Assembly: GCA_020426085.1 (NCBI GenBank)
Contig: JAGQQP010000101.1
Location: 1-10,258 of the forward strand
Reading direction: 5' to 3'
DNA length: 10,258 bases
Origin: Planctomycetaceae bacterium
GTDB lineage: Bacteria > Planctomycetota > Planctomycetia > Planctomycetales > Planctomycetaceae
Made by a program: the position numbers and the translations under genes. The stretch's first letter is position 1; each line of letters begins with the position of its first letter. Under the pieces are notes generated by a model. It searched no databases. It was not told where the DNA came from and saw only the letters and a list, made by a program, of their open reading frames with translations. Below are positions 1,678 to 10,258 of this stretch, piece after piece.

Positions 1678-1736
1678 ATTTCACGAGCGTTTTTCAATAT
1701 ATTGCTTGAGTTGATTTAAAATTTTGAATGAAAACT

Positions 1737-1740
1737 GGAG
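1737..1740 (+). promoter_or_regulatory. Ribosome binding site deciding the start of the metacaspase gene
   Basis: GGAG lies 8 bases before the ATG at 1749. An in-frame ATG at 1728 would add seven residues (MKTGDLE) but has only AT-rich sequence before it and would put two acidic residues in front of the signal peptide. The 1749 start is therefore preferred. Confidence 0.6.
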
Positions 1741-1748
1741 ATCTAGAA

Positions 1749-3116
1749 ATGAGACTTCTACAAAACAAAATGACCCACTGGATGGGAGTTTTCAGTATTC
1801 TGTGTTCGTGTGCAGGAGCAATTCAGGCTGCGCCCCGAGCCATTCTGGTCGAGGAAGTAAAAAACGATCGTAGCAGTTTTTATGTCCGAGTTGACGTGGA
1901 TCGGGAAGACCGGACTTACGTTGCCGGCGAAACGGTTAACATCGAAGTTGTCAGTGAAAAACCAGGTTATCTGTATCTGTTTTATCTCCAGGCGGACAAT
2001 AAAGTTGTCTGTCTGTTTCCCAACAAAGTGCAACGGGAAAATCAAATCCCTGCAAAGAAAAAAATCATTATTCCCCAACGCGATGCCGGATTTCGTCTGC
2101 GTGTCGCTGAACCGCTCGGTGATGAAATTTTGAAAGCAATTGTCACCAGCAAACGATTGAATTCGCTGGATATTGATATCCTAACTAAATCTAACTTTAC
2201 GGCTATAAATGAAGATGAGGCGAAAGCCATTCGAGTCGAGGCGACCGATACCGACAGCCAGGAGTGGGCCGAACATCAGGTCCAGATCAGAACGGTGAAG
2301 TCAGCATCAGATAGAAAGAACCGGCAGCAGAGACACCGACGACTCGCATTGCTGATTGGGATTAGTGATTACAAAGATCCGAGAATTCCCGAATTACGCA
2401 TATGTCATCTGGACAGCAAAAAAATGGGGGAAGCGTTAATATCTTATGGCCATTTTGACGAAGTGATTTCGCTTGTTAACGAACAGGCAACCCGAGGAAA
2501 TATCGAGAAAATGATCCGGGTACAAGCCGCTGAAAAAACACAACCGGGGGATGAAGTATTGATCTTCTGGTCTGGACATGGAGATTCGGTCGCAGATGTG
2601 GATGGGGACGAACAGGACGGGCGTGATGAGGTGCTGATCCCTTATGATGCAAACCGGGAAAATATTAAAGAGACCAGCATCACAGACGATACGTTCGGTC
2701 GCTGGCTGCAAGCACTGGATGGCCGCAAAATCGTAGTCTTGCTCGATGCGTGCAAAAGTGGGGGGCAAGCTAATAACGAAAAAGGGCTGGGACAGCGAAC
2801 GGATAAACTGAAAACATTTGATTTTCTGGATAACGAACTTACTCGTACCAAAGATATCGGCCAGAAACAGGCAGCTGTGCTGGCATCTTCGTCGGCCAGT
2901 CAGATTTCTCTGGTTCGTCTGGAAGGCGATCTATCGGTAATGACTTATTTTCTTATTGAAAAAATCAAATCTAGTGATGGTGCCCTGAGTCTGCAGCAGG
3001 CTTTTGAGCACCTGAGTAAAGCAGTCCCGGATTATGTGAAACAGAAATTTCCAGGTTATACCCAGACACCGGTTTTGATTGGTGATGAGAAAATGCCGTT
3101 TAATTTCAGGGAATAA
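1749..3116 (+). CDS. Exported DUF4384-metacaspase-like peptidase (C14, type I metacaspase-like)
   Basis: This 455-residue protein is a probable cysteine endopeptidase. Residues 1-28 form a signal peptide ending in AIQA before AP. A DUF4384 domain spans about 41-144 (PGYLYLFYLQAD, VCLFPNK, NQIP). A basic linker (181-198, rich in Arg and Lys) leads into the caspase fold, which starts at RLALLIGISDY (198 on). The dyad is H277 in WSGHG and C335 in DACKSGG. Between them, 283-294 reads DVDGDEQDGRDE, the acidic loop typical of type I metacaspases. The Asp two residues before the Cys matches the S1-pocket Asp of metacaspases, so Arg/Lys cleavage preference is inferred. The p10-like half includes AAVLASSSASQ (about 374-384). 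Neighbours: the transglutaminase upstream carries the same accessory domain, and a second caspase-fold gene follows after 183 bases. A start at 1728 (462 residues) is possible but less well supported. Confidence 0.85.
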   Translation: MRLLQNKMTHWMGVFSILCSCAGAIQAAPRAILVEEVKNDRSSFYVRVDVDREDRTYVAGETVNIEVVSEKPGYLYLFYLQADNKVVCLFPNKVQRENQIPAKKKIIIPQRDAGFRLRVAEPLGDEILKAIVTSKRLNSLDIDILTKSNFTAINEDEAKAIRVEATDTDSQEWAEHQVQIRTVKSASDRKNRQQRHRRLALLIGISDYKDPRIPELRICHLDSKKMGEALISYGHFDEVISLVNEQATRGNIEKMIRVQAAEKTQPGDEVLIFWSGHGDSVADVDGDEQDGRDEVLIPYDANRENIKETSITDDTFGRWLQALDGRKIVVLLDACKSGGQANNEKGLGQRTDKLKTFDFLDNELTRTKDIGQKQAAVLASSSASQISLVRLEGDLSVMTYFLIEKIKSSDGALSLQQAFEHLSKAVPDYVKQKFPGYTQTPVLIGDEKMPFNFRE

Positions 3117-3182
3117 ACAGGGTTATCTGCTGAGATCAAAACTGGATTGAGTGTGCGGACTGATTGATCTCGAATGTCAATA

Positions 3183-3219
3183 GGATTGATTGCCTCGCTT
3201 TATTGAGCAGTGTCAATCC
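3183..3219. repeat. Inverted repeat in the gap before the second caspase gene
   Basis: GGATTGA (3183-3189) and TCAATCC (3213-3219) are exact 7-base complements separated by 23 bases. No T run follows, so it does not read as an intrinsic terminator. It could be a regulatory hairpin, an operator, or chance. The rest of the 3117-3299 gap shows only AT-rich sequence before the next start and no clear -35/-10 pair. Confidence 0.25.
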
Positions 3220-3299
3220 GATTTCTGCGAAGCGTAATTGTTACTTATGATGCTTTTTAGACGACATATATCAGTTTTATAAAATAGAAATGATATCTG

Positions 3300-5387
3300 A
3301 TGAAATATGACTGTTCACAACTAATTCAACTGACTGTTCTTAAGAAATCATTGCTCACACTGATATTAATCACCTTTGTCCCAGTAACAGACGCTGACGC
3401 AGGGATATCCAGGGCTTTTCTGATTGGTGTTTCTGAATATGAATCCCCAGCAGCTCCCGACTTACCACTGGTTAAAAATGATCTTAATCACTTATATACG
3501 ACACTCACCACGTACGGTCAGTTTGAAAAAAAACATGTGGTACGTGCACTTGATGGAGGCGTGATCAACGCTGAATCCAAAGCATTGAAGAAGGTATTTC
3601 CTCAATGGCTGAGTCAAGCACAAACTGAGGATGCGATTCTGGTGTATTTCAGTGGCCATGGCTTTCAAGATGCTTCAGGAAACCTTTATCTGGCAACAGC
3701 TGATTTTGATATTCGTAATCCTGAAGAGACAGGGCTACCAGTCTCCTGGCTGCGTAATCAGCTTGCCAGTTGCAAAGCGGGATTCAAACTCCTGATTCTG
3801 GATTCGTGTCATGCAGGATCTGAGAAAAACGCCGAAATGGATAACCGGGTCTCTGCCAAGGAATTGGGAACTCCGTTTGAGGACTTGAAAAACGTGGTGA
3901 CGATTGCAAGCTCCCAGGCTGATGAAAAATCTCTGTTCTATTTCAACCAGAAGCGATCGCTGTTCAGTTTCTGGATGACAGAAGGAATGAAAGGGCATGC
4001 GGATTTCAATCAGGATGGGATGATCGATATTGACGAATTGTACAAATATGTCTCTCGACGGGTACGTCATTCTGCCAATGCACTCTACAGTAAATCGCAG
4101 ACACCGGTGCGTATTGTGAGGACGGGGGTTATTGATGTCCCGACTGTTCTGAAATTACATCCTCAGCCTCTGAAACAGACCCTGTCAAATATGGCAGAGC
4201 ATATTTCGATTGTGATGCAGGAAAACAAGCTGGAACAATTGGGTGTATTGGAATTCCTGGACAATACCAACACGCTGCAGGAAAAGCTGGGAGGCGATTT
4301 CGGACTCCTGGGAAAATTCTGTTCCGAAGAGATCGAACGTCAGCTGGCAGAACTGAAACTCTCAGGAGGGTTTGGACTGGTCAATCGCAAGCGACTGCGG
4401 AGTGCCCTGAAAGAACAGGGATTCAAAATTGATGATCTCTCTTCGAATCTCAAGCTGGCAGGACTCTCGAAGAGCGTTGGTAATATGCCCGTTGTTGTTC
4501 TGGGAACGTTTCAGAGTCGCAAAGGGCGCGTGGTTCGCCTGCGCTGTAACATGCAACAGACGACAGGATTTGAAGATCTGGATACGATCGGCGGCAGCGC
4601 TGAACTCAGTCTGGATGAGTGGGCTATGTTGGGGCATAGCGCGGCGGTACGTGCGGAAGATCGTCAGGTGAATCCCTTTAATCAGCAGAAAGAAGATATT
4701 TCGATCCAGACCCAGGTCGTGAACAGGTTGGATGCGCGTAGTCAGGGGGGGCATATTCTCCTGGATCCCGCTTTTCCTTTCGATGTGCAACTGGTGATTA
4801 ATGATAAGGTCCGTCAGGGGGTTGTACGTGGCAATGATTATTTTGTACCAGTCAAACAGGGAGAAGTTTACAGCATTCGGATTGTGAACAAACAGGGGAA
4901 GCAGGGGGAAACCATCGTCATGAAACTGCTGGTTGATGGTCTGGATACGCTTCCGCGAGCTAATTCGGATCAGGATGACAAAGCCGGGCTGATGAAAGCG
5001 CTAGAGACAGAATACTGGGGGCTGCCGGTAACACATCTCACCGAGGCACGGAGTTGGATTTTAGATCCCAAAGCGATTCCCAGGGAATATCCAGATGCAA
5101 CCTGGGAAGTCAGGGGCTTTGTTACCCAGACAGGAGATGACGGGAAACTGCGGGAATTCAAAGTGGTCGACGCTGCCGAATCTCTTGCGGGTAGACAGGG
5201 ATTCACAGATCAGATCGGTCTGATTACGGTTGCCTTTTATAAGGCCAAGGGTTCCGCCCGCGCGCTGGGAACCGCTGCCGGTCAGGAACGGGATGAGAAT
5301 TTGAAAGAACGCAGTGGGATCGCTGCGGGGAATTTAATGGGTGTCGTGCATCTGCGGTACGTTGACGCCACCTCATTGGGTGAGTGA
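3300..5387 (+). CDS. Exported caspase-fold protein with EF-hand loop and FlgO/CsgG-like domain
   Basis: This 695-residue multidomain protein has a signal peptide at about 1-34 (KKSLLTLILITF, ending ADA before G). Its C14 caspase fold starts at SRAFLIGVSEY (37 on), with H120 in YFSGHG and C170 in LDSCHAG. It lacks the DxDGDExDGxDE loop of its upstream neighbour. Instead, residues 235-246 (DFNQDGMIDIDE) form a complete EF-hand calcium loop, with acidic or Asn residues at positions 1, 3, 5, 9 and 12. EF-hands at this place are common in bacterial caspase-domain proteins. Residues 313-445 resemble FlgO/CsgG-type domains (LGVLEFLDNTN, FGLVNRKRLRSAL, VVVLGTFQSRKGRVV). Residues 490-690 are a beta-rich domain I cannot name (VRGNDYFVPVKQGEVYSIRIVN, LLVDGLDTL, WEVRGF, IGLITVAFY). 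Calcium-controlled peptidase activity at the envelope is inferred. No Shine-Dalgarno is visible before the ATG, and no other ATG would keep the signal peptide. Confidence 0.78.
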   Translation: MKYDCSQLIQLTVLKKSLLTLILITFVPVTDADAGISRAFLIGVSEYESPAAPDLPLVKNDLNHLYTTLTTYGQFEKKHVVRALDGGVINAESKALKKVFPQWLSQAQTEDAILVYFSGHGFQDASGNLYLATADFDIRNPEETGLPVSWLRNQLASCKAGFKLLILDSCHAGSEKNAEMDNRVSAKELGTPFEDLKNVVTIASSQADEKSLFYFNQKRSLFSFWMTEGMKGHADFNQDGMIDIDELYKYVSRRVRHSANALYSKSQTPVRIVRTGVIDVPTVLKLHPQPLKQTLSNMAEHISIVMQENKLEQLGVLEFLDNTNTLQEKLGGDFGLLGKFCSEEIERQLAELKLSGGFGLVNRKRLRSALKEQGFKIDDLSSNLKLAGLSKSVGNMPVVVLGTFQSRKGRVVRLRCNMQQTTGFEDLDTIGGSAELSLDEWAMLGHSAAVRAEDRQVNPFNQQKEDISIQTQVVNRLDARSQGGHILLDPAFPFDVQLVINDKVRQGVVRGNDYFVPVKQGEVYSIRIVNKQGKQGETIVMKLLVDGLDTLPRANSDQDDKAGLMKALETEYWGLPVTHLTEARSWILDPKAIPREYPDATWEVRGFVTQTGDDGKLREFKVVDAAESLAGRQGFTDQIGLITVAFYKAKGSARALGTAAGQERDENLKERSGIAAGNLMGVVHLRYVDATSLGE

Positions 5388-5455
5388 GGGAGAAGGATCT
5401 GCCGCAGTAGAAAGATTTTAGAATACAGTGCTCAATTGGAAAACTGAAAAAATAG

Positions 5456-5503
5456 AGCAGCCCCTGTTACTGGTCATCGTTCGTGCATGTGGGGCCGGAG
5501 TAG
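5456..5503 (+). pseudogene. Relic of a CHAT-domain gene: C-terminal tail only
   Basis: Read in the frame of 5456, this stretch encodes SSPCYWSSFVHVGPE followed by TAG. The intact TPR-CHAT gene just downstream ends RSPYYWAAFVHVGPE followed by TGA. Eleven of 15 residues are identical, the other four are substitutions without gaps, and both tails stop at the same codon position. A TAG at 5453-5455 closes the frame upstream. A weaker resemblance may continue in another frame (5431-5452: LNWKTE against the ARKWVRE stretch), which would imply a frameshift. The codons differ at several third positions (GGG CCG GAG against GGA CCA GAA), so this is an old paralogous copy rather than a recent duplication. 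It is most simply the 3' end of a lost CHAT gene. Chance is unlikely given the gap-free match and matching stop. Confidence 0.75.
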
Positions 5504-5527
5504 GCAGGTAGAACGTCTCAATTCCAT

Positions 5528-5532
5528 AGGAG
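5528..5532 (+). promoter_or_regulatory. Ribosome binding site of the first TPR-CHAT gene
   Basis: AGGAG sits 12 bases before the ATG at 5545 and 15 before the adjacent in-frame ATG at 5548. The spacing is longer than usual, but no better site is near, and the signal peptide supports this start. Confidence 0.5.
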
Positions 5533-5544
5533 TTCATACAGACC

Positions 5545-8271
5545 ATGATGAATTGTGTCCGGCATATAATGATCGCACTCCTGTTGATTTTGTGTGCCCA
5601 TGCTATGGAGTGTCATCAGGATGCGCAGGCAGGAGAGATTCCGCAGTGGGTCTTCGACCAGGGGAAGCAGGCGAAACAACTCACGAAAGCCGGGCGGTAC
5701 CAGGAGGCTGCCGAGATCTGGGAAAAGATTCTCGATCAACTGGAACGTAGCCTGGGGGCAGATCATATTGATGTCGCTGTGACATTATTTAACCTGTCCT
5801 TAATTTATTACGATCAGGGACGTTATGAGTCTGCAGAACCTCTTTTGCAACGGGCTCTCAAGATCAGGGAAAAACAGTTCGGTGCGAATCATATCGAGGT
5901 GGCAAACGTCTTATGCACTCTGGGAAATCTGTCTCAGATTCAGGGAAATTATTTAACAGCAGAACCTATATACCTACGCGCTATAGAGATCACGAAACAG
6001 CAAGCAGGCGCTGATTCAGAAAATGTGGCCCTTTTGTTGAATAACCTGGGGGCAATGTACCGGGCACAAGGACGCTATGACGAAGCAGAGCCCATCCTGA
6101 AACAGGCGTTTGAAATATATCAGCGGCACAATCATTCAATGTTGATGCTTGTATGTTCTAATCTCGGTTCACTTTACAGGGGGCGTGATCAGTACGAACT
6201 GGCGGAGAAATATCTTCAACGGTCGGTACAGATATCGAAACAGAAACTGGGACCCGATCATATTGAAGTTGCATTCACCCAGGCAAATCTGGGTTCATTA
6301 TACGTGAAACTGAAACAATACGAGAAAGCTGAATTACTGCTGAAAAATGCACTCACAATATGGGAAACAAAACTGGGGACAGATCATCCTTATTCGGCGG
6401 GAGCCCTTTGGTCGCTGGCAAGTATGTATCGTGATCAAGGATTATACGAGAAAGCAGAGCCCTGTATCGATCGTGCGATTCGAATACTGGATTCCAAGGG
6501 GATTGCAGCAGGAAAACGATCTGCTGCATATAAGTTTCGTGCAGAAATTGCCTGGGAACAACAGCGACGTGGAGAAGCACTTGCGGATCTGCGTGAAGCC
6601 ATGGACCTGGCGGAACAACAGCGGGCAATGTTTTCGGGGGGGGCGCAATCCCGGGCCGAGTCCTTTTCTGAATATACCTCAACCTTTGAAACAATGGTGC
6701 AATGGCAATCCGAACTGGGCGATCTGGGGGATATGACTCAAGTCCTGAGCGCGATTGAACGGGGCAAAGCACGTTCGCTGCTGGACGATCTTCTTCACAG
6801 CGGGACTGATATCAACATCGGGCGTGCGCAGGCTGAACGCCAGCAGTTTAAAAAAGAGGAACAGCGTCTGAAGCAGGAATTGACTGTTCTGGAGCGTCGG
6901 CTGACGAAAGCCAATCAATCGACAGTCGAGCCCAAGATCATTGCGGCCAAGAAGGCGATTCTCGAACTGGAAAACCGCATGCGAACGACGAGCCCGGTGT
7001 ACCGGAATTTGCTGTCTGCCGGTTCGGGTCCCCTGCGGTTGAGGCAGTTGCAGCGTGACCTTGTGGGAGATGATAATCTACTGTTGATTTACATGCTGGG
7101 GGCAGAGGGGGGATATCTTCTGGCAATCGATCCGAAACGTGCTCGATTATTCTCATTGTACGTCGATGAAAAGTCGGCGCAGTTTTTAAATTGCGAAGCA
7201 GGGCCGCTGACTGCCGAGCGACTCGGTTCATTACTGACGAATGATCAACATTCAGGCATCCTGGAGACGCTTTCCGATCAGCAGAAATCAGATCTGGCAG
7301 CGTCCCAACTCGCAGAGCTCTTCAAAATTCTGATCCCAACAGAGTTGCGTGCTGGCTTGCGAGATCAATCTCTGAAACGGCTGATGGTTGTCCCGGATGG
7401 ACCTCTGGCGTTGCTTCCCTTTGAGGCACTGGTTGTTGAGTTGGTCGGAAACGAACCGACTTACCTGATCGATGTGGGGCCCCCCGTTTTGTATGCTCCG
7501 TCTGCGACAGTGATGTACAACCTGAATCGTCGATCGGATACAACCAGGAGGGAAGCATCCCCTTCGGTCTTAACGGTGGGGAATCCGAAATATGACAACG
7601 CATCAACCAGCACCACACAGACCTCGCTGACGGCGCTCAGCACAAAAAGCCGCTATGCAAAAGCAGGGGGGGCATTACCTGCGCTACCCTTCACACTGAC
7701 AGAATCGAACTGGATTGTAGATAACTTCCGGAAATCGGGTTTGGAGACGGTCCAACTGTCAGGAGTCCGCGCTACCGAAGCCGGCATCCGACGTTCGATT
7801 GCAGGGCGAAAATATCTGCATCTGGCCTGCCACGGACTGACCGATCATTCATTCGGCAACGTCTTTGGAGCATTGGCTGTCACTCCGGGAAATCAGTCTG
7901 ATCGCGATGATGGGTTTCTCACACTGGGCGAGATCTATGAACTGAACTTATCCGGTTGCGAACTGGCGATTCTGAGTGCCTGCCAGACGAATTACGGTCC
8001 TCGACAGAAAGGGGAGGGTGTCTGGAGTCTGTCGCGGGGTTTCCTTGTCGCCGGTGCGCGGCGGGTGGTCGCCAGTAACTGGCTGGTGGATGACGAAGCG
8101 GCAGCCAGCATGATGAGTTATTACTGCGGTTATCTGGCGCAGGCGGAAGAAGAGAAGCGAAAACCAGATTATGCTCAGGCATTACACGATGCCCGCAAAT
8201 GGGTACGCGAACAGAAAAAGTGGCGTAGTCCGTATTATTGGGCTGCATTCGTGCATGTGGGACCAGAATGA
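5545..8271 (+). CDS. Exported TPR-CHAT caspase-like protein (intact)
   Basis: This 908-residue protein pairs a TPR scaffold with a CHAT domain (caspase HetF associated with TPRs). Residues 1-30 contain a hydrophobic export signal (IMIALLLILCAHA). Kinesin-light-chain-like TPRs of about 42 residues run from about 35 to 360, with the consensus NLGxLYxxQGxYxxAEPLL and LGxDH at unit joins. A helical, coiled-coil-prone stretch follows (427-480). The CHAT domain starts near NLLLIYMLGAEGGYLLAI (511 on) and includes LMVVPDGPLALLPFEAL (613-629). Its dyad is H763 in LACHG and C813 in LSACQT, and it has the usual ending (EGVWSLSRGFLVAGARRVV, then SPYYWAAFVHVG). Catalytic activity is inferred from the intact dyad. 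A paralogue follows after 64 bases, and a relic of another CHAT tail lies just upstream. The CHAT half is noticeably GC-richer than the next gene. What the TPRs bind is unknown; neighbouring exported proteins are candidates. Confidence 0.9.
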   Translation: MMNCVRHIMIALLLILCAHAMECHQDAQAGEIPQWVFDQGKQAKQLTKAGRYQEAAEIWEKILDQLERSLGADHIDVAVTLFNLSLIYYDQGRYESAEPLLQRALKIREKQFGANHIEVANVLCTLGNLSQIQGNYLTAEPIYLRAIEITKQQAGADSENVALLLNNLGAMYRAQGRYDEAEPILKQAFEIYQRHNHSMLMLVCSNLGSLYRGRDQYELAEKYLQRSVQISKQKLGPDHIEVAFTQANLGSLYVKLKQYEKAELLLKNALTIWETKLGTDHPYSAGALWSLASMYRDQGLYEKAEPCIDRAIRILDSKGIAAGKRSAAYKFRAEIAWEQQRRGEALADLREAMDLAEQQRAMFSGGAQSRAESFSEYTSTFETMVQWQSELGDLGDMTQVLSAIERGKARSLLDDLLHSGTDINIGRAQAERQQFKKEEQRLKQELTVLERRLTKANQSTVEPKIIAAKKAILELENRMRTTSPVYRNLLSAGSGPLRLRQLQRDLVGDDNLLLIYMLGAEGGYLLAIDPKRARLFSLYVDEKSAQFLNCEAGPLTAERLGSLLTNDQHSGILETLSDQQKSDLAASQLAELFKILIPTELRAGLRDQSLKRLMVVPDGPLALLPFEALVVELVGNEPTYLIDVGPPVLYAPSATVMYNLNRRSDTTRREASPSVLTVGNPKYDNASTSTTQTSLTALSTKSRYAKAGGALPALPFTLTESNWIVDNFRKSGLETVQLSGVRATEAGIRRSIAGRKYLHLACHGLTDHSFGNVFGALAVTPGNQSDRDDGFLTLGEIYELNLSGCELAILSACQTNYGPRQKGEGVWSLSRGFLVAGARRVVASNWLVDDEAAASMMSYYCGYLAQAEEEKRKPDYAQALHDARKWVREQKKWRSPYYWAAFVHVGPE
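5770..6516 (+). repeat. TPR coding repeats, about 126-base period (first CHAT gene)
   Basis: These bases encode residues 76-324, about six TPR units. Unit anchors (the position of D in DHxDVA) fall at residues 76, 118, 160, then 241, 283 and 325. The step from 160 to 241 is 81 residues instead of 84, so one unit has lost about three residues around RHNHSML. The units are strongly diverged at DNA level. Confidence 0.8.
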
Positions 8272-8324
8272 ACCTCTCTTTGCTATGAAAGACTTACAAG
8301 CAGCCAGGCTTTCTGATTTTTAAT

Positions 8325-8328
8325 GGAG
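8325..8328 (+). promoter_or_regulatory. Ribosome binding site of the second TPR-CHAT gene
   Basis: GGAG lies 7 bases before the ATG at 8336, which is close to ideal spacing. It fixes the start of the gene that runs off the right edge. Confidence 0.7.
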
Positions 8329-8335
8329 CGAATTT

Positions 8336-10258
8336 ATGAATCGATTATTGCCAGGAACGTATTGTCTGATGGCATTGCTGTTTGTTTCTGTCTGTTTTCG
8401 ATCACAGGAGAACTTCGCCGCGCAACAATTACCTCGAAAAGCCTTTGATCTGGTGAAACAGGCCAATCAGTTTGAAAAAGAGACGAAATTCAGGGAAGCA
8501 GTGGAAAAGTGGGAAGAATTACTACCGATTGTAGAAGCAAGTTATGGAACTGATCATCTCGATGTCGCTGCGACTTTAGGCAAAATTGCGCTGTTAAAGT
8601 CAAGGCTGGGGGATTTTGAAGAAGCGGAGGCAGCCTACCTGAGATCGCTTCACATTCGCGAACAGAAACTGGAAGTAAACGATCCAAAAATTGCAATCAC
8701 TCTTAATAATCTGGCGAATCTGTATATTACTCTGGGGCGTTATGAAAAAGCAGAGCCACTTACCCGAAGGGCTCTTAACGTTTATGAATTCCATTTGGGA
8801 AATGATCATCCTGATTATGCTTCAATCATGAATAATCTGGCTGCCTTATTAAAAGCCCAGGGAAAGTATGATGAGGCAGAAACACTCTACAATCGTTCTT
8901 TGAAAATTAGAGAATCCAAATTAGGGCCTGATCATAATGACGTAGCTCAAAGTCTACACAATCTCGCAGCTTTATATGAATTACAAGGAGACTACACCAG
9001 GGCTGAACCATTTTATCAGCGCGCACTTAAGATTCGTCAGAAGCGACTGGGAGAAGATCACCCCGATGTCGCTACGAGTCTAAATTATCTGGCTGCTTTG
9101 TATTTTGCTCAAGGTCGGTACGAGAAGGCAGAGCCACTCTACCTTGAGTCAATAAGCATCCTGGAAGCGAAACTGGGAAAGGATCATCCTGATGTCGCGC
9201 AAATTATCAATAACTTAGCAGCCCTCTATTACAGAAAGAGTGAATTTAAAAAAGCGGAGGATTTTTATCTGCGTTCTTTGAAAATAAGGGAAATAAAATA
9301 CGGTTCCAATCATCCTAGTGTTGCCTCCAGCCTGAATAATCTGGCGAATCTTTATTCCAGTCAACTTGATTATAAGAAAGCTCAACCACTTTATCAGCGA
9401 TCTCTTCGGATACGAGAACTGGCTCTGGGCTCTGGCCATCCAGATGTTGCAAATAGTTGTAATAATCAGGCGGGACTTTACAAGCTGCAAGGGAAATTTG
9501 AAAAGGCCATGCCATTCCTCGATCGGGCTATTAAGATTCAGAATGAGAATGGGATCGCATCGGGAATCAGGGCAAAGACTTATAAACTGCGAGCAGAAAT
9601 ATTCTGGGAATTGAACAAGCAAGATGAAGCGATTGCCGACTTATCGCAAGCGATGCAACTGGCAGAGCAACAACGTCTTCAGTTTTCGGGTGGTTCTGAA
9701 GATCATGCTCAGGCGTTTTCAGGTTATGCATTACTTTATGAAGAGATGATTAAATGGCAGACTGAGCGGGGTAAGCTAGCAGAAGTATTTTCTGCTATTG
9801 AAAGAAGTCGGGCAAAATCTTTGCTGGATCAACTGGCAGCGAGTGGGACAAATCTGCTTATCGGTCTCTCTTCTACAGAGTCGGCGCGATTAAAACAGCA
9901 AAAGCAGGATGCCCACACTCGTTTGGCGTATCTGGAGCAACAGATAAGGATCAAGAAAGCCAAATCGGAAAAAATTAACTCTGGAGATCAAAACGATTTA
10001 AATCAGTTATCCAGGGAACTCGTGGCGGCAAAGCAGACGTTGGTAGATGCATATCAGGCAGTTCAAAATGCCAGTCCAGCCTACCGACTATCGATGTCTG
10101 AAAATCAACGCCCAGTAGAACTGTCTGTGATTCAGTCAGAAGTTACTCAACAACAGGGGATTTTGCTGGAGTATTTTATTGGAAGTGATCAGAGTTATCT
10201 GTTTGTTGTACCCAGTAAGGGGGATCCACAAATTTATCACCTAAAAGTGGATGAAACT
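8336..10258 (+). CDS. Exported TPR-CHAT paralogue, 3' end beyond the window
   Basis: The reading frame is open for 641 codons to the last base, with no stop. Residues 1-29 form an export signal (LMALLFVSVCF, possible cut after FAA). Ten TPR-like units follow from about 36 to 452, eight of them exactly 42 residues apart, with the consensus DVAxSLNNLAALYxxQGxYxKAEPLYxRSLKIRExKLGxDHP seen in parts. The stretch from GIASGIRAKTYKLRAEIFWE (406-425) through AEQQRLQFSGG (443-453) to FSAIERSRAKSLLDQLAASG (485-504) aligns with the upstream TPR-CHAT gene, which has GIAAGKR, AEQQRAMFSGG and LSAIERGKARSLLDDLLHSG. A helical, coiled-coil-prone region covers about 515-580. The first CHAT strand is present (GILLEYFIGSDQSYLFVV, 608-625), but the His and Cys motifs lie past the edge, so catalytic competence cannot be judged. 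It probably shares a transcript with the gene before it (64-base gap). Confidence 0.88.
   Translation, partial: MNRLLPGTYCLMALLFVSVCFRSQENFAAQQLPRKAFDLVKQANQFEKETKFREAVEKWEELLPIVEASYGTDHLDVAATLGKIALLKSRLGDFEEAEAAYLRSLHIREQKLEVNDPKIAITLNNLANLYITLGRYEKAEPLTRRALNVYEFHLGNDHPDYASIMNNLAALLKAQGKYDEAETLYNRSLKIRESKLGPDHNDVAQSLHNLAALYELQGDYTRAEPFYQRALKIRQKRLGEDHPDVATSLNYLAALYFAQGRYEKAEPLYLESISILEAKLGKDHPDVAQIINNLAALYYRKSEFKKAEDFYLRSLKIREIKYGSNHPSVASSLNNLANLYSSQLDYKKAQPLYQRSLRIRELALGSGHPDVANSCNNQAGLYKLQGKFEKAMPFLDRAIKIQNENGIASGIRAKTYKLRAEIFWELNKQDEAIADLSQAMQLAEQQRLQFSGGSEDHAQAFSGYALLYEEMIKWQTERGKLAEVFSAIERSRAKSLLDQLAASGTNLLIGLSSTESARLKQQKQDAHTRLAYLEQQIRIKKAKSEKINSGDQNDLNQLSRELVAAKQTLVDAYQAVQNASPAYRLSMSENQRPVELSVIQSEVTQQQGILLEYFIGSDQSYLFVVPSKGDPQIYHLKVDET
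8561..9568 (+). repeat. Eight TPR coding repeats with exact 126-base period
   Basis: Anchors for units fall at residues 76, 118, 160, 202, 244, 286, 328 and 370, each step exactly 42 codons. Some DNA similarity survives, for example AATAATCTGGCGAATCT occurs in two units (near 8704 and 9337). The array has two more units than the upstream paralogue, consistent with unit gain or loss by slippage or recombination. Confidence 0.85.

Follow-up and report, generated by a model that had tools for sequence, protein, structure and literature searches.

A short CHAT gene tail beside a planctomycete caspase gene, probably what remains of a deleted TPR-CHAT neighbour

The gap between a caspase gene and an intact TPR-CHAT gene in this planctomycete contig holds the 3' end of a further CHAT gene (5456..5503, forward strand), an observation confirmed by tail alignment, sequence shuffles and pattern searches, and its best explanation, to which I would give a probability of about 0.8, is that a CHAT gene lying directly after the caspase gene at 3300-5387 was deleted down to its tail. 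The window (the whole stretch of DNA that was analysed) is a complete contig of 10,258 bases within a 5.1-Mb draft assembly of 1017 contigs that is 76% complete. On its forward strand it carries a TGase_elicitor/DUF4384 protein (7-1677), a first caspase of the DUF4384-caspase type (1728-3116), an intact second caspase gene (Peptidase_C14, 3300..5387) whose orthologues at two Gimesia sp. SAT87 loci are 74% identical and end at the same point, an intact TPR-CHAT gene of 908 amino acids, here called gene A (5545..8271), which ends in RSPYYWAAFVHVGPE and a stop, and a TPR protein, gene B (8336..10258), which the contig end cuts before any CHAT domain. The remnant, or relic, sits in the 157-base gap separating the second caspase gene from gene A. 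The two SAT87 loci, on contigs C19 and C29 of genome G011, are called L036 and L037 below, and their coordinates are locus-internal. Separately, protein P0001, 839 amino acids long and encoded on a 3220-base contig, shows 2 residue differences from residues 21-859 of gene A (window 5605-8121) and may come from a second strain or be a variant record of this one.

The relic, its edges and its specificity

The letters at 5456-5503 are AGC AGC CCC TGT TAC TGG TCA TCG TTC GTG CAT GTG GGG CCG GAG TAG, giving SSPCYWSSFVHVGPE and a stop, and realignment bore out the original prediction that fifteen codons plus stop align without gaps with the end of gene A at 11 of 15 identical residues; over the bases, 33/48 agree with the gene A tail (8224-8271), stop included, and the relic's stop codon falls in the same column as that of gene A, while the L037 gene stops one codon earlier and the L036 gene has lost this stop. 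Placed in six frames on the 157-base gap, the 15-residue tail of gene A reaches a best BLOSUM62 score of 68, whereas 1000 dinucleotide-shuffled versions of the gap scored 27 at best, nowhere near 68, so the relic beats shuffled sequence, a comparison on which its reading had been said to depend. The same tail scores at most 22 in three other window stretches tested, and the L036 tail scores 72 in the gap against a best shuffle of 32. Elsewhere in the window, the best ungapped match to the 45 coding bases is again the gene A tail (32/45), with a runner-up of 25. Differences between relic and gene A number 3, 1 and 9 at codon positions 1, 2 and 3 (binomial p 0.009), and since 9 of these 13 lie at third positions, most of the divergence appears to have arisen under coding constraint, the pattern being as would be expected of two coding lineages. 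The PF12770 profile has four matches across the assembly and none at the relic, as expected because a 15-codon piece is too short for it.

The relic probably extends slightly upstream, through the short stretch AAA AAA TAG at 5447..5455 (forward strand) that forms its probable left edge: intact genes here encode a basic residue or D, followed by K and then by TGG, and AAA-TAG at 5450-5455 is aligned with AAA-TGG in both L036 and L037, which suggests that a W codon turned into a stop at 5453-5455. Further upstream the likeness fades to 13-15 of 27 bases, compared with 19-22 between intact genes. The post-caspase spacer to the left (5388..5446, forward strand) resembles the L037 spacer that separates caspase from CHAT gene (7019-7115), with a score reached by 0 of 1000 shuffles (2 of 2000 when 5388-5455 is used), and its likeness to the L036 spacer does not stand out clearly from chance, with 64 of 1000 shuffles reaching the score. 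The spacer from the relic stop to gene A (5504..5544, forward strand) shows no likeness beyond chance to the tested L036 and L037 spacers (301/1000 for L037); in nine comparisons the lowest count was 18/1000, against window 3117-3299, and the remainder were 226 or more. Control spacers compared between window and L037 differed, the one between the TGase_elicitor gene and the first caspase being above chance (3/500) and the one between the two caspases not (493/500), so spacers in this cluster are not uniformly conserved. A caspase reading frame that once ran on into the relic was considered and rejected: the orthologues stop at the same place, the relic is read in a different frame and additional stops intervene.

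The back-translated pattern YW..FVH[VIM]GP occurs at two places in the 5.1-Mb assembly, the relic and gene A, with 0 matches for the reversed control, and neither a DNA search nor this strict pattern found a further copy of the relic in the assembly except the gene A tail. A looser tail pattern occurs at 12 places in 9 of 170 family genomes, the window's own included, and at 10 of these, 111 or more open in-frame codons run ahead of the match; the exceptions are the relic and a match on G100:C253 that looks like chance, its residues being unlike a CHAT end. A still shorter FxHxGP-like pattern lacks specificity, with 16 places matched across 5 of 6 genomes, and the tail pattern had 0 matches in viral contigs.

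The place after the caspase in relatives

Among the 17 genomes of the genus (own included), G011 alone has close caspase copies other than that of the window, a scan of genome contigs for relatives of the window found the two SAT87 loci only, and at E<=1e-30 the caspase is found in 7 of 170 family genomes, again with its own included. The genes around the caspase were read at 7 loci, from 5 of the other 6 genomes (G011 C19, C29 and C60; G111; G134; G162; G030; G138 being the sixth), and a caspase row at G011:C29:2245-2994 proved to be a different caspase gene inside L037. The place directly after the caspase holds an intact CHAT gene in L037, a broken one in L036 and a tail in the window. In L037 a 97-base spacer separates the caspase (4940-7018) from a TPR-CHAT gene of 1544 codons (7116-11750), intact and ending in SPYYWASFVHIGP and a stop, and another caspase-containing gene comes next, with no second CHAT gene. 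In L036 a TPR-CHAT gene (6783-9800) precedes the caspase, and the gene after it, which starts at 12103 (12103-12516) and is alignable to the L037 CHAT gene, meets a stop at codon 7 and is broken off near 12419 by a repeated element, presumably an insertion sequence, which occurs in 8 copies in that genome (the L036 copy included) and in which the contig ends. The gene at the same position being broken there, the slot decays elsewhere too. The L036 gene at 6783-9800 itself continues for 38 extra residues past GPE, where its stop is missing.

Across the 7 relative loci, the next gene on the same strand is a CHAT gene in 2 (one of them broken) and none has two, with the sequences of L036, G134 and G162 ending within or soon after the caspase's neighbour; no CHAT gene follows the caspase within the sequence covered at G011 C60, G134, G162 and G030. 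An intact CHAT gene right after the caspase is thus present in a syntenic relative, at L037, and the order caspase, CHAT gene, second CHAT gene was found at none of the relative loci read. In another genus (L075, G111:C40:14001-34000, at 8013-13710), a caspase of 50% identity and a TPR-CHAT gene on the other strand run towards each other. In a further genus of the family (L102, G134:C110:10001-19936), a second tandem CHAT gene at 6641-7692 has lost its middle: after an intact TPR-CHAT gene, it consists of a TPR start, a stretch that by eye is antitoxin-like and the last ~106 codons, so a tandem CHAT gene has lost internal sequence elsewhere as well.

Origin of the tail

Comparison of the tails supports the relic as a CHAT gene 3' end of the same narrow Gimesia subfamily as gene A and the SAT87 genes. 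The relic, gene A, L036 and L037 share the motif FVH[VI]GP, which none of the 120 homologues listed (of 847 found) has; 62 of these 120 have a tail recognised by the regular expression, and many homologues end in FVLVGPN or similar. With the motif seen in these four only, the lost gene was probably a member of this small subfamily. Raw identities of the relic are close to one another, at 36/48 with L037, 35/48 with L036 and 33/48 with gene A, and at the variable sites of the 45-base alignment where no sequence stands alone against the rest, the relic sides with L037 at 5, L036 at 3 and gene A at 3, a preference for L037 that carries little weight at such numbers. A fresh copy of the gene A tail is not favoured, given this 5 versus 3 agreement and the absence from the relic of all three bases private to gene A; the original prediction of an old paralogue instead of a fresh duplication fits both the third-position bias and these missing private bases, again with little weight over 45 bases. 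In linker and CHAT part gene A is 62% identical to L037 and 54% to L036, and the linker of gene B is 48% identical to the L036 TPR-CHAT gene, 41% to P0008, 39% to L037 and 38% to gene A; a tree of linker and CHAT part left out 15 of 28 sequences, gene B among them, which the trimming motif had missed, and was not used as evidence. Two CHAT lineages are thus seen in different orders around the same caspase in the two genomes, B being near the L036 gene and A of the L037 type.

Under the preferred reading, a TPR-CHAT gene of the Gimesia subfamily would once have stood directly downstream of the caspase gene, and a deletion reaching from the post-caspase spacer into the CHAT gene as far as its last 16-18 codons would have taken its start and nearly its whole body, joining spacer to tail, after which the remnant would have gained missense changes and a nonsense change. 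I infer both that this was one deletion event and its timing, and most simply the lost gene would correspond in position to the L037 CHAT gene that follows the caspase. The relic is without a start of its own and most likely has no function; its disabling changes are the missing body and the probable W-to-stop change, and both of the 2 substitutions private to it in 45 bases alter the residue, a sign of relaxed constraint at tiny numbers. Of the earlier proposal that the locus once held at least three CHAT genes in tandem, one of them cut to its tail, the CHAT gene tail is supported, and for the coexistence of three no relative with the order caspase-CHAT-CHAT was seen.

A different history, which I regard as improbable, is that no whole gene was lost here and that a CHAT 3' end of ~57 bases, from gene B or from another gene, was pasted by template switch into the ancestral caspase-CHAT spacer of ~97 bases, gene A then being the counterpart of the L037 gene. 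The arithmetic suits it, as the 157-base gap minus the ~57 bases of relic comes close to the 97-base spacer of L037, and so do the L037 type of gene A in its linker and CHAT part and the position of the end of gene B, a possible donor, beyond the contig. However, the sequence to the right of the relic does not resemble the spacer of L037, gene A is a poor donor in view of its missing private bases, and a piece that ends exactly at the stop would be a coincidence for a paste, whereas it is expected of a 3' remnant.

Very little probability goes to the idea that the 48 bases were kept for a function, as a short peptide or as a regulatory or recombination site: the tail is still recognisable, but an in-frame stop lies just upstream of 5456, leaving only 4 open codons before the pattern starts at 5468, the changes private to the relic alter residues, and neither DNA search nor strict pattern finds another copy in the assembly apart from the gene A tail. 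An assembly error fusing two CHAT loci deserves as little credence, for although this is a draft in 1017 contigs judged from the assembled sequence, the left part fits the spacer expected after the caspase and the relic is identical to no other place in the assembly. Chance likeness of non-coding sequence to a short motif is scarcely credible; there are 15 codons only, one of the 12 looser-pattern matches is chance-like and a still looser pattern matches many places, yet 0 of 1000 shuffles came near, the stop shares its column with that of gene A and the strict pattern is confined to the relic and gene A. Deletion of a CHAT gene down to its tail is hence the reading I retain, and the relic is an ordinary case of gene decay, in a cluster where genes turn over.

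Meaning and relation to known systems

As this case illustrates, a relic may be very short and still be recognisable, with synteny linking it to the gene that was lost. It also indicates that a CHAT gene beside this caspase is expendable, and it illuminates function little. A more speculative thought, and one I consider unlikely, is that the place after the caspase is a turnover hot spot where CHAT genes are repeatedly gained and destroyed, as one would predict for a caspase with exchangeable CHAT partners, engaged in a defence-like arms race; if true, planctomycete caspase-CHAT clusters would be worth surveying for the birth and death of CHAT partners. In the paper collection searched, nothing on this locus came up and no paper joins 'Gimesia' and 'caspase'.

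With respect to known systems, the relic aligns with the C-terminal Y-W-x-x-F-V-x-x-G-P stretch of gene A and its homologues, as TPR-CHAT genes do (Pfam CHAT, PF12770), but unlike them it keeps the last 15 to 18 codons only, and its FVH variant turned up in Gimesia genes alone. Gene remnants within the intergenic spacers of bacteria are a known kind, according to excerpts of two papers (PMC522871, PMC3164680), and like those described there the relic is a short in-frame match to the end of a paralogue, without a start, with a nonsense change and with an intact paralogue adjoining; it differs from them in being very short and in lying in a caspase/CHAT cluster whose slot has an intact gene at one relative locus and a broken one at another. 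Tandem arrays of paralogues also turn over by recombination, as an excerpt on the immunity genes of type VII secretion recounts (PMC9484751), and the window shares with those arrays the loss of a gene in tandem; what is left here, unlike in the arrays of that excerpt, is a leftover tail and not a fused gene, so that recombination between paralogues is not the obvious route.
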